From Arthrobacter sp. Edens01 (GTDB lineage: Bacteria > Actinomycetota > Actinomycetes > Actinomycetales > Micrococcaceae), in NCBI RefSeq assembly GCF_001307035.1, contig NZ_LKIU01000005.1, positions 1,164,300 through 1,228,299 on the forward strand: a stretch of 64,000 bases of DNA, given 5' to 3'. Position 1 is the stretch's first letter. Every line of letters starts with the position of its first letter. The notes under the pieces are model-generated. The model searched no databases, was not told the origin of the DNA, and worked only from the letters and a program-made list of their open reading frames with translations. Below, one piece after another: positions 40,604-45,569 of the stretch. Made by a program: the position numbers and the translations under genes.

Positions 40604-41568
40604 GCCGGGTATGCGTGACCGGAGGCAACGGCTTCCTGGGCAGCGCCGTCGTGTCCCGGCTGGCGGCAGACCCTGCAGTGAGCCACGTCCTGAGCCTGGA
40701 CCTCCGGGAGCCCTCGGCTGAGCGGAAGGTTGACGGCGTGGTGTACGCGCTGGCGGACGTCTGCTCCCCGGACGTTTCCAAGGAGCTGCAGGAGCACCGG
40801 ATCGACACCGTGGTCCACTTGGCGGCGATCGTGAATCCCGGCAGGGACACCACCCGGGAGCAGGAGTACCGCGTCGATGTTACCGGGACGCAGAACGTAC
40901 TGGCCGCCTGCCTTGAATCAGGCGTGAAGCACGTGGTCATCTCATCCTCCGGCGCCGCCTACGGCTACCACGCAGACAACGCCCCGTGGCTGAACGAGTC
41001 CCACCCGCTGCGCGGCAATGACGAGTTTGGCTATTCCCGGCACAAACGCCTGGTCGAGGAGGAACTGGCCCGGCTGCGCACTGAGCACCCGGAACTGCGG
41101 CAGACCATCTTCCGGATCGGAACGATCCTGGGGGAGCGGGTCCGGAACCAGATCACGGCGCTGTTCGATGCGCCTCGGCTGCTGCGGGTGGCCGGCAGCG
41201 AGTCGCCGTTCGTCTTTATCTGGGACCAGGACGTCGCTGATGCCATGGCACAGGCCGTGATCACCGGACGCAGCGGGATCTTCAACGTGGCCGGCGACGG
41301 CGCCCTCACCGTCCGCGAGATCGCGGGGCTTCTGGGGAAACGGACACTGACGGTTCCCGCTCCGCTCCTGGCAGCCGGTCTCTGGGCGGGGCAAAAGCTG
41401 AAACTCACGGTGCACGGTCCGGAGCAGCTGCGGTTCCTGCGCTACCGTCCGGTCCTGGACAACACGGCCCTGAAACACGAGTTCGGCTTCACTCCCACGC
41501 GAACCAGCAGGGAAGCCTTCCTCGAGTTCAGGAAAGCGCGGGAGGCCGCCGGCGCCCGGCAACGATGA
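40600..41568 (+). CDS. NAD-dependent epimerase/dehydratase (extended SDR)
   Basis: A 322-residue extended short-chain dehydrogenase. The N-terminal dinucleotide motif is V-T-G-G-N-G-F-L-G-S (about 5-14), and the active-site Y-x-x-x-K is Y-S-R-H-K (about 145). H-L-A-A-I-V-N-P near 70 is typical of nucleotide-sugar epimerase relatives, which also include 3-beta-hydroxysteroid dehydrogenases. The substrate cannot be fixed. It starts with GTG overlapping the symporter gene. Confidence 0.88.
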   Translation: MSRVCVTGGNGFLGSAVVSRLAADPAVSHVLSLDLREPSAERKVDGVVYALADVCSPDVSKELQEHRIDTVVHLAAIVNPGRDTTREQEYRVDVTGTQNVLAACLESGVKHVVISSSGAAYGYHADNAPWLNESHPLRGNDEFGYSRHKRLVEEELARLRTEHPELRQTIFRIGTILGERVRNQITALFDAPRLLRVAGSESPFVFIWDQDVADAMAQAVITGRSGIFNVAGDGALTVREIAGLLGKRTLTVPAPLLAAGLWAGQKLKLTVHGPEQLRFLRYRPVLDNTALKHEFGFTPTRTSREAFLEFRKAREAAGARQR

Positions 41569-41625
41569 CGACGCCGCTGCCGGCCGCAGTGGATTGCGCG
41601 GCCGGCAGCGGATCCGCGGAAAGTG

Positions 41626-42669
41626 CTAGAAGTAGCTCACACCATTTGTCTTGAAGGGCAGCCCCAGCCCGCCGGCCACTTCCGCCACAACCTCGGGGCA
41701 AAAGAAGTACCACTTTAGTTCCGCGACCAGCGGGGCCCCGAAGGCCGGCCGCACCCGCAGGACGTCCGAGACCACCTCCGATGCCCCGGGGACATTCTTC
41801 TGCCGCTCCCACATCAGGATAATGTCCTCCCCGTCGAAGTGGTGGACTGTTGACCTGTGGATCTCGGCGGCATCCGGACCGAACGTGTCCGTCAGGGATC
41901 CGGCACGGATTTCCCCGTGTCCGGTTTCAGTGGCGTTGCCAACCACCTCGGACCGTCCGCTTGCCAGGAACAGGGACACCATGGCGTCAATGTCGTAGGC
42001 GTTGAACGCCGCGGCCAGCCGGCGCAGCAGCGCCTGGTGTCCGGGATGCCGGCCAGCGGCCCGCGGGCCGGGTGCCAAGGTTTCGGGGGAGGGTCCTGCA
42101 GAGTCCGTACGCGCCGCCCGCAGCGTGGTCCGGCCGCGGTGCAGGGCGGACTTGACGGCGCCGGGAGTCGTCTCCAGCATCCCGGCAATCTCGGCGAGGG
42201 AATAGGAGAACACATCCTTGAGGACCACACACGCCCGTTCCCGGGGAGGCAGCAGGTGCAGCAGCTGACGCAGTGCGGACTCCACTGCAAGGGCTGCCAG
42301 CGGATCCTCGGCCCCGTCATCAGGAAGGTCAAGGGCGGATTCTGTCCACTCAAGGGTCACCCGGCCGCTGCGGCGCAGTGAGTCGATCCACGTGTTCGTG
42401 GCGATACGGACAAGCCATGCCTGGGTATTGCGGATCGGCTCATACCGCTGCGATGCTTCCGCAAGGGCCTTCGTCAGGGTCTCCTGCAGCAGGTCCTCGG
42501 CGTCCCACACGGTGGGGGTCAGGCTGCGGCAGTAGGCGTACACCGAAGCCCGGACCGGTTCCAATGCCACCAGGAAATCGCGGCGGGCCTGCCGCAGGTC
42601 CACCCTGTTTTCTGCCAAAGCCTGCGTTTCGCCTGCCGCGCAGGCTTCGAAGTCCGTTCCCGCTGTCAT
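41626..42669 (-). CDS. ECF-type sigma-70 factor with C-terminal NTF2/SnoaL-like domain
   Basis: A 347-residue extracytoplasmic-function sigma factor. Region 2 is near 25-95 (D-A-E-D-L-L-Q-E-T-L-T-K-A, then W-L-V-R-I-A-T-N-T-W-I-D). Region 4 is near 135-190 (L-P-P-R-E-R-A-C-V-V-L-K-D-V-F and S-L-A-E-I-A-G-M-L-E-T). The last 130 residues look like an NTF2/SnoaL fold. Sigma factors of this kind usually lack a separate anti-sigma factor and may be regulated by the fused domain. The ATG at 42669 follows GAGGGG; a longer TTG start at 42696 is less likely. Confidence 0.87.
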   Translation of the reverse strand: MTAGTDFEACAAGETQALAENRVDLRQARRDFLVALEPVRASVYAYCRSLTPTVWDAEDLLQETLTKALAEASQRYEPIRNTQAWLVRIATNTWIDSLRRSGRVTLEWTESALDLPDDGAEDPLAALAVESALRQLLHLLPPRERACVVLKDVFSYSLAEIAGMLETTPGAVKSALHRGRTTLRAARTDSAGPSPETLAPGPRAAGRHPGHQALLRRLAAAFNAYDIDAMVSLFLASGRSEVVGNATETGHGEIRAGSLTDTFGPDAAEIHRSTVHHFDGEDIILMWERQKNVPGASEVVSDVLRVRPAFGAPLVAELKWYFFCPEVVAEVAGGLGLPFKTNGVSYF

Positions 42670-42715
42670 TACACATCCCCTCGCTCTCCCGCCCAAGGCG
42701 GTGCTTGATGAAAAT

Positions 42716-42732
42716 CATGGCACCGTGCCATG
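42716..42732. promoter_or_regulatory. 17-bp palindrome upstream of the ECF sigma gene
   Basis: CATGGCAC, one C, then GTGCCATG: a perfect inverted repeat centred 55 bases before the sigma start codon. Its size and symmetry fit a dimeric-repressor operator. No factor can be assigned. Confidence 0.5.
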
Positions 42733-42885
42733 CCCTTACCGGGTAGACGCACAGACAGGCCCAAAAGATACGCCGTAGCAGGCAGCGTCCGCCGCAGGGC
42801 TGAAGCGCAGGCGGGATCTGCGGATGTCCGGACCGTTGACCGTTACAGCCCTGTGGCGGGCACCGCCGTCGGGCGCTGCCTGTTG

Positions 42886-42891
42886 TAAAGT
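42886..42891 (+). promoter_or_regulatory. -10 hexamer of the leuS leader transcript
   Basis: TAAAGT is followed by six bases (GGAGAA) and the leader-peptide ATG at 42898, so the transcript is predicted to begin at that ATG. No good -35 is visible. Confidence 0.5.
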
Positions 42892-42897
42892 GGAGAA

Positions 42898-42924
42898 ATG
42901 ACCGCATTGCTCCTCCTTAGATAG
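42898..42924 (+). CDS. Leucine leader peptide in front of leuS
   Basis: A nine-codon ORF, ATG ACC GCA TTG CTC CTC CTT AGA TAG, encodes M-T-A-L-L-L-L-R. Four consecutive leucine codons read by different tRNA-Leu species and a rare AGA arginine codon precede the stop. The ATG sits six bases after TAAAGT, so it may be translated without a leader. The hairpins that follow directly and the downstream gene for leucyl-tRNA synthetase fit control by leucyl-tRNA charging. Too short for homology evidence; the case rests on codon content and context. Confidence 0.7.
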   Translation: MTALLLLR

Positions 42925-42975
42925 CCGCGTTTGTATCAAACGCGGCAGCCCCTTGCATCTGACGAGGGGCTTTTG
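42924..42975 (+). promoter_or_regulatory. Attenuator hairpins of leuS: pause hairpin plus intrinsic terminator
   Basis: Hairpin 1 begins at the last base of the leader stop codon and has a perfect 10-bp stem (42924-42933 with 42937-42946). Hairpin 2 follows at once, with a 7-bp stem (42947-42953 with 42965-42971) and a T-run (42971-42974), which is an intrinsic terminator. One alternative pairing is visible: 42909-42915 within the leucine codons can pair with 42964-42970, the 3' arm of the terminator, with one G-U. A classical 2:3 antiterminator is not obvious. About 95 bases then separate it from leuS. Confidence 0.65.
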
Positions 42976-43070
42976 TGTGTCTGGGGAAGAGTCAACAGCG
43001 CAGGCGGAACCGGCAGCACGCCGGAGTCCGCGGATCACCAGGATTTTCTTGAGGACAGAGGCGAAGCATA

Positions 43071-45569
<2,499 letters not shown>

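Follow-up and report, generated by a model that had tools for sequence, protein, structure and literature searches.

A probable leucine-responsive attenuator upstream of leuS in Arthrobacter sp. Edens01 and related actinobacteria

Can the supply of leucine decide whether RNA polymerase enters leuS in Arthrobacter sp. Edens01, and through which RNA structure would it do so? The question is raised by a short leucine-rich upstream open reading frame (uORF) followed by two hairpins, H1 and the terminator T, in front of the gene. Attenuators of the E. coli trp type pair a terminator with a leader peptide that carries regulatory codons. In this study, we analyzed the locus in a window of 64,000 nucleotides (contig NZ_LKIU01000005.1, positions 1,164,300 to 1,228,299), compared its leader with those of related genomes, and folded the leaders with and without a ribosome. 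We consider it likely that leuS is controlled by a leucine-responsive transcription attenuator that works through the ribosome, with H1 as antiterminator.

Architecture of the leuS leader

The features of the locus are listed in Table 1. The eight-residue ORF that an initial annotation had placed six bases after TAAAGT is present there (bases 42892-42897 lie between) and consists of eight codons and a stop (ATG ACC GCA TTG CTC CTC CTT AGA TAG). No -35 match was found upstream of TAAAGT. From the spacing to the -10 element, we infer a leaderless transcript starting at the uORF AUG. The stop codon does adjoin a perfect 10-bp hairpin, as had been described: the G of UAG is the first base of H1, whose arms are 42924-42933 and 42937-42946. 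The terminator follows with zero spacer. Its place and T-run agree with the initial annotation, while the stem had been counted too short: it has nine pairs instead of seven (42947-42955 with 42963-42971), one of them G-U. The tail motif GGGGCTTTTGTGTG occurred in 39 of 57 family elements checked. T ends 99 bases upstream of the leuS start codon, a GTG.

Table 1. Features of the leuS leader and adjoining genes (positions in the window)
Feature	Position	Strand	Basis
-10 promoter element TAAAGT (TANNNT type)	42886..42891	+	Start-codon spacing common to parsed leuS elements
Leader peptide uORF MTALLLLR*, probably leaderless	42898..42924	+	Leucine retained via synonymous codons in relatives
Regulatory leucine codons TTG CTC CTC CTT	42907..42918	+	Leucine conservation in 102 distinct leuS elements
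H1 hairpin, proposed antiterminator, perfect 10 bp, loop TAT	42924..42946	+	Parsing, covariation
T, intrinsic terminator hairpin, 9 pairs, 7-nt loop	42947..42971	+	Terminator scan, parsing, covariation
U-rich tail of T, TTTGTGTGTC	42972..42981	+	Sequence
leuS, leucyl-tRNA synthetase, controlled gene	43071..45569	+	NCBIfam TIGR00396, 974 bits, above cut-off
Divergent ECF-type sigma-70 family gene	41626-42696	-	Sigma-70 superfamily model above cut-off

A terminator scan of 42600-43300 yielded four sites on both strands together, compared with a mean of 0.6 in shuffled sequences, and T was the sole site on the plus strand. The leader 42898-43070 folded more stably than 200 of 200 dinucleotide shuffles (z -4.39). 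That T might terminate an upstream gene was rejected: the neighbor on that side is transcribed in the opposite direction, and T therefore ends no nearby plus-strand gene. Membership in the T-box or another Rfam leader family was also rejected. Five Rfam matches to E 5 in 41500-44000 all scored far below the gathering scores, and in 12 related loci nothing reached the gathering threshold.

Conservation and relatives of the element

A scan of named genomes for leuS relatives gave at least 80 loci. By pattern scans upstream of such loci, the same layout was found in Arthrobacter, Pseudarthrobacter, Nocardioides, Marmoricola, Nonomuraea, Thermoactinospora, and others. A covariance model (R1) was built from leuS leaders only, namely that of the window and 24 from named genomes. 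L010 and L072 had been left out before a set of 28 leaders including the window was formed; the 25-row alignment dropped L035 (no parsed terminator), L002, and L051 from it. R1 matched in 29 of 29 genomes of the genus, 79 of 149 of the family, and 33 of 396 of the phylum, where some matches were ilvB or leuA leaders. R1 also matched 31 of the 80 listed leuS loci of named genomes. The leucine run and both hairpins, whose conservation the initial annotation had suggested scoring, were retained among the relatives matched. No R1 match was present in 70 of the 149 family genomes searched or at 49 of the 80 listed leuS loci, some of the latter having little upstream DNA to search. The family and phylum scans were run with stricter filters, so that a miss there says little about whether the element is absent. 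R1 missed a degenerate form with one leucine codon at a Glutamicibacter locus (L010).

For further analysis, 129 elements were extracted from 36 of 36 phylum match rows, 64 of 98 family match rows (34 being left out), and 31 named loci, with overlaps and a duplicate of the window merged. leuS was located within 1.5 kb downstream of 110 of them. Parsing succeeded for 104 of these 110 leuS elements (unparsed: L068, L149, L159, L163, L165, L179), 102 of which were distinct. The other 19 elements, mostly weak matches, preceded ilvB (12), leuA (4), cimA encoding citramalate synthase (1), and a leuS start cut at a contig end, as judged by eye (L148), or were spurious (L108). All four leuA products and the citramalate synthase passed the curated NCBIfam cut-offs, as did 8 of the 12 ilvB products (TIGR00118); the remaining four ilvB sequences, all cut fragments, scored 507-530 against a cut-off of 538. 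Thus, a model built from leuS leaders alone also recovers ilvB, leuA, and cimA leaders, more weakly. In several phylum genomes, the layout is kept with a different terminator having an ACCCTCC-type 5′ arm, both before leuS (L084, L085, L088, L102) and before ilvB (L105, L109, L111, L150, L151). The weak match before the citramalate synthase gene (L143:535-635) has a short uORF ahead of two hairpins, with valine and isoleucine codons and not leucine codons.

Searching the window's own genome with R1 gave the leuS element only and missed the ilvB and leuA leaders. The ilvB leader (L243:1132-1240) is like the leuS leader in architecture: its uORF encodes MQIVTVVLSKRVA*, CTT AGC AAG CGCGTG opens H1, and T follows directly. 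In the leuA leader (L247:1321-1392), TAGTCT and six bases precede a GTG-start uORF that encodes LLLS and contains CTC CTC CTT AGC TGC CGCGG; no terminator was seen by eye in this stretch, which is of the LEU-element type. The CTT-AGC core is common to this leader and the leuS leaders.

The leader peptide is under coding constraint. Counted from the last leucine codon, codons -2 and -1 encode leucine in 90 of the 102 distinct leuS elements each, and the spelling varies at both: CTC 32, CTT 30, CTG 25, and CTA 3 at -2, and CTG 39, CTC 27, CTT 19, and TTG 5 at -1. The amino acid at codon -3 is not constant. At the last leucine codon, CTT is used in 88 elements, CTA in 8, CTC in 4, and CTG in 2. 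Altogether, leucine accounts for 294 of 830 residues after the start, and in 15 of the 102 elements there are just one or two leucine codons; one codon has been lost in L137. The initial annotation had named missing leucine codons in close relatives as evidence against its reading; there, leucine is retained via synonymous codons. The geometry is kept as well. TANNNT stands at -10 in 101 of the 102 distinct elements, and the start codon lies 12-13 nt past the first -10 base in 103 of the 104 parsed elements and 14 nt past it in one, a spacing that detection favored. The core CTTNNNNAGCCG was present in 76 of 102 elements. In 78 of 102, H1 begins 8 nt past the first base of the last leucine codon. 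The stop follows the last leucine by two codons in 66 elements and by five in 27, with minimum distances from stop to T of 20 nt and 18 nt, respectively. In one element (L121:1501-1606), UAG has become CAG and the stop now lies in the distal side of H1, at 9 nt from T, which offers a natural test of the model.

Both hairpins show covariation. In 97 distinct aligned rows, both sides had changed in 10 of 10 modelled pairs of H1 and in 5 of 7 of T, with a covariation score of 0.462 compared with 0.170 after shuffling and at most 0.114 in slid-partner controls; this alignment of matches includes ilvB, leuA, and cimA leaders and two poor rows, and was fitted to the structure, hence favors it. In the 25-row MAFFT alignment, made with no structure used, 9 of 17 pairs were doubly changed, compared with 4.6 after shuffling.

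H1 and T also abut. Their linker measures 0-2 nt in 98 of 104 parsed elements, short linkers being partly given by construction since the search spanned only 0-5 nt. A hairpin of -6 kcal/mol or better whose base lay no more than 2 nt from the terminator was found in 84 of 102 attenuators and at 1 of 55 other terminator-like sites, which came from 864 kb of the genome with the window among them. With the limit set at -9 kcal/mol, the counts were 68 of 102 and 1 of 55, and hairpins of this strength occurred 15, 25, and 40 nt further upstream of 5, 3, and 3 of the 55 sites. This contrast is descriptive because the attenuators are mutually related and were gathered by a model with H1 next to T. 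A looser control based on minimum free energy (MFE) folds, asking for a paired base within 3 nt of T, gave 95 of 102 attenuators and 21 of 36 other terminators, several of which are themselves attenuators (e.g. in L002 and L051); this measure is loose in GC-rich DNA.

Judged from its conservation, the element is real and functional. A leucine-responsive attenuator, as the initial annotation had proposed for leuS, is well supported because of conservation, synonymous leucine codons, covariation, and the related ilvB, leuA, and cimA leaders; that proposal had given H1 no role, and here our reading departs from it. The same synonymous codons and covariation, and the fact that a model of leuS leaders alone picks up those of ilvB, leuA, and cimA, speak against an unregulated early terminator or a promoter-proximal transcript lacking a leucine response, the least probable of all readings.

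Ribosome position and the proposed role of H1

Pair probabilities were calculated for the 102 distinct elements, assuming that a ribosome covers 12 nt beyond the first A-site base. The median probability of H1 was 0.995 in the ribosome-free leader (at least 0.5 in 96 of 102), 0.993 with a ribosome stalled at the first leucine codon of the run (87 of 102), 0.167 at the last leucine codon (9 of 102), and 0.000 at the stop (2 of 102). The corresponding medians of T were 0.983, 0.991, 0.990, and 0.978. T fell below 0.5 in 4 of 102 ribosome-free leaders (L072, L125, L172, and L128, which is identical to the window leader), in 2 of 102 when the stop was occupied (L072, L099), and in 0 of 102 at either leucine stall. 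MFE folds of the ilvB leader from the same genome gave a like pattern. A stall at the first leucine codon permits H1 and a ribosome at the stop blocks it, so the stalling position decides H1 in these predictions; folding with and without a ribosome mask, which the initial annotation had recommended, places H1 under ribosome control in silico. While a ribosome was on the uORF, no structure in the mask folding of the 102 elements competed generally with T. An antiterminator sharing base pairs with T, as in classical trp-type attenuators, was not found; its lack had been remarked on before and is borne out by T medians of 0.98-0.99 in all four ribosome states. The leader does combine other properties of a leader-peptide attenuator, i.e. 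a presumably translated uORF with leucine codons, a terminator before the gene, and a structure controlled in silico by ribosome position.

As H1 forms at the first-leucine stall and is blocked at the stop, and T is nearly always possible, the modelling makes H1 a probable antiterminator, although it has no pairs in common with T. The transcript would begin at the uORF AUG and be translated at once. With ample charged tRNA-Leu, the ribosome would reach UAG and cover the 5′ arm of H1; H1 would stay open, T would form, and transcription would stop before leuS. With scarce charged tRNA-Leu, the ribosome would stall on the leucine codons, H1 would fold, T would fail, and RNA polymerase would enter leuS. 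That a stall means read-through is suggested by the biology of leuS and of the biosynthetic ilvB and leuA leaders, and this sign of the response is also the one proposed for M. tuberculosis ilvB1 and in the model of C. glutamicum ilvBNC (PMC13236596, PMC11857589, both in excerpt).

How H1 would defeat T we can only infer. Blocking in the exit channel is proposed because the two hairpins share no pairs. To close the lower stem of T, its 5′ arm would have to enter the exit channel of RNA polymerase; H1, only 0-2 nt from this arm, would take that space and keep the lower stem open. For phage P7, a protein filling the exit channel has been reported to keep terminator hairpins from forming (PMC6624301, excerpt). 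Against the attenuator with H1 as antiterminator stands that H1 and T can coexist by base pairing, and thermodynamics alone therefore predicts termination whenever the uORF carries a ribosome. Also, leader-codon mutations in S. coelicolor ilvB were without effect on regulation, as cited in PMC1262725. Further points against it are the few elements in which T drops below 0.5, those with just one or two leucine codons, the losses in L137 and L121, and the family genomes and named loci that gave no match. Among the titles and abstract openings of the open-licence literature, we found none describing a hairpin adjoining a terminator as antiterminator. We put forward H1 as a steric antiterminator, removed by the ribosome at the stop, as a tentative reading with somewhat less than an even chance of being right.

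In a different reading, H1 would be a mere pause hairpin synchronizing ribosome and polymerase, and regulation would arise from timing or ribosome contact instead of from blocking T. Hairpin pauses fall roughly 10-14 nt after the hairpin, and pyrimidine-G steps are common 10-14 nt past H1, with 38 of 102 at offset 10. The peak is broad, however (31-38 of 102 at offsets 10, 11, 12, and 14), and a sharp hairpin-pause signature was not adopted for this reason. A pause is also attributed to a portion of one leader hairpin in the C. glutamicum model (PMC11857589, excerpt), but a pause alone does not give a leucine-dependent outcome, and we regard this reading as unlikely.

More improbable still is a second, translational layer like that of the leuA LEU element, in which the anti-Shine-Dalgarno-like leucine run would pair with the leuS ribosome-binding site in read-through transcripts. 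The MFE fold of 42898-43070 does pair the leucine run with the leuS start region, and leuA LEU elements have been described with a comparable stem (PMC1262725), but the leucine run would pair with any purine-rich site.

The initial annotation had pointed to an alternative pairing between the leucine codons and the 3′ arm of T, which would make the codons the antiterminator, so that read-through would occur with no ribosome. This pairing exists in the ribosome-free MFE fold of the window leader up to T: 42909-42915 pair with 42964-42970, and the pairing continues between 42917-42922 and 42957-42962 (UUAGAU opposite AUCUGA in the T loop), in line with the low T probability of L128 given above. 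Five-pair windows between leucine run and T 3′ arm contain 90-91% standard pairs in the 25 aligned leaders, and L020 and other single elements have a long contiguous pairing. Pairs beside CUU/GAG are slightly more frequent than in shuffles (93 compared with 83.7 in 82 elements, a level reached by 44 of 1000 shuffles, relatedness uncorrected). Yet such pairing is expected of pyrimidine-rich leucine codons. It is the MFE structure in only 2 of 20 distinct genus variants, is broken or non-MFE in the sister species L137, L183, and L194, which fold T instead, and shows no general co-evolution of the leucine run with its own T: a median fraction of 0.59 of other elements' T pair equally well or better. 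We therefore rejected it as a conserved switch. It cannot read leucine either, since mask folding shows that a ribosome on the leucine codons or the stop hides it, and it is a very remote candidate for the antiterminator. The AGA codon (42919-42921) can pair with UCU of the terminator loop (42958-42960), and AGG with CCU is present in another genus subclade; several sister species break this pairing.

For H1 as antiterminator, the unusual and testable point is that it would work without competing for base pairs. If true, leuS, ilvB, and related actinobacterial genes would all rely on this steric device, which would also account for attenuators of these bacteria that lack a classical antiterminator.

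Comparison with known leader-peptide attenuators

The Streptomyces precedent named in the initial annotation is real: leuS attenuators were predicted in two Streptomyces in 2005 (PMC1262725). In S. lividans, RNA-seq in 2021 described the peptide LeuL2, MRAVRLLLSEPR, upstream of leuS as leaderless and followed by a hairpin and uridines (PMC8079986, excerpt). As far as that excerpt goes, LeuL2 and the leuS elements studied here are alike in having a leaderless leucine-rich uORF, a hairpin, a terminator, and leuS; L089-L091 and L094 encode MRAVRLLLSEPR itself, and the core CTTNNNNAGCCGCG is common. LeuL2-type elements differ in that the uORF ends at TGA three codons later and H1 is longer. R1 finds both types alike: 12 of the 33 matched phylum genomes belong to families f5 (11) and f7 (1), whose uORFs read MRAVRLLLSEPR or similar, f5 presumably being Streptomyces judging by this peptide. 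Since R1 matches leaders with the Streptomyces LeuL2 peptide, the Arthrobacter leader belongs to a kind of switch already known, leucine-specific ribosome-mediated attenuation. The 2005 prediction includes an antiterminator in addition to a terminator. No description of a leuS attenuator in Micrococcaceae was found in the open-licence literature searched, nor a mention of leuS by term search of PMC2965389. The present analysis thus widens the range of the leucine attenuator, predicted in Streptomyces, to include Micrococcaceae as well as other actinobacteria, and points to one architecture common to leuS, ilvB, leuA, and cimA leaders.

The actinobacterial leuA LEU element likewise has a uORF with a leucine run; unlike the leuS element, it was described with no terminator, and a pseudoknot and Shine-Dalgarno pairing were proposed (PMC1262725). 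Compared with trp-type attenuators of E. coli, a conserved antiterminator competing for base pairs is missing in the leuS element.

Also similar are the C. glutamicum ilvBNC leader with the ilvB-II motif and M. tuberculosis ilvB1, each with a uORF carrying codons for branched-chain amino acids, where a stall permits the antiterminator and a ribosome at the stop prevents it (PMC11857589, PMC10272879, PMC13236596). In the ilvB1 proposal, the antiterminator is hidden by a ribosome at the stop and forms upon stalling; the M. tuberculosis structures are called mutually exclusive, whereas H1 and T of leuS abut and have no common pairs (PMC13236596, excerpt). In C. glutamicum, the ilvBNC uORF starts one nucleotide from the RNA start, and the antiterminator hairpin lies just before the terminator with an overlap in a GCC triplet (PMC11857589, excerpt); terminator-stem mutations raised operon expression seven- to eight-fold according to the work cited (PMC11857589, PMC10272879). 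H1 holds the position of this antiterminator without pairs common to T. The 2005 survey left open how actinobacterial attenuators with missing components work (PMC1262725), and a model of abutting hairpins makes this question testable.
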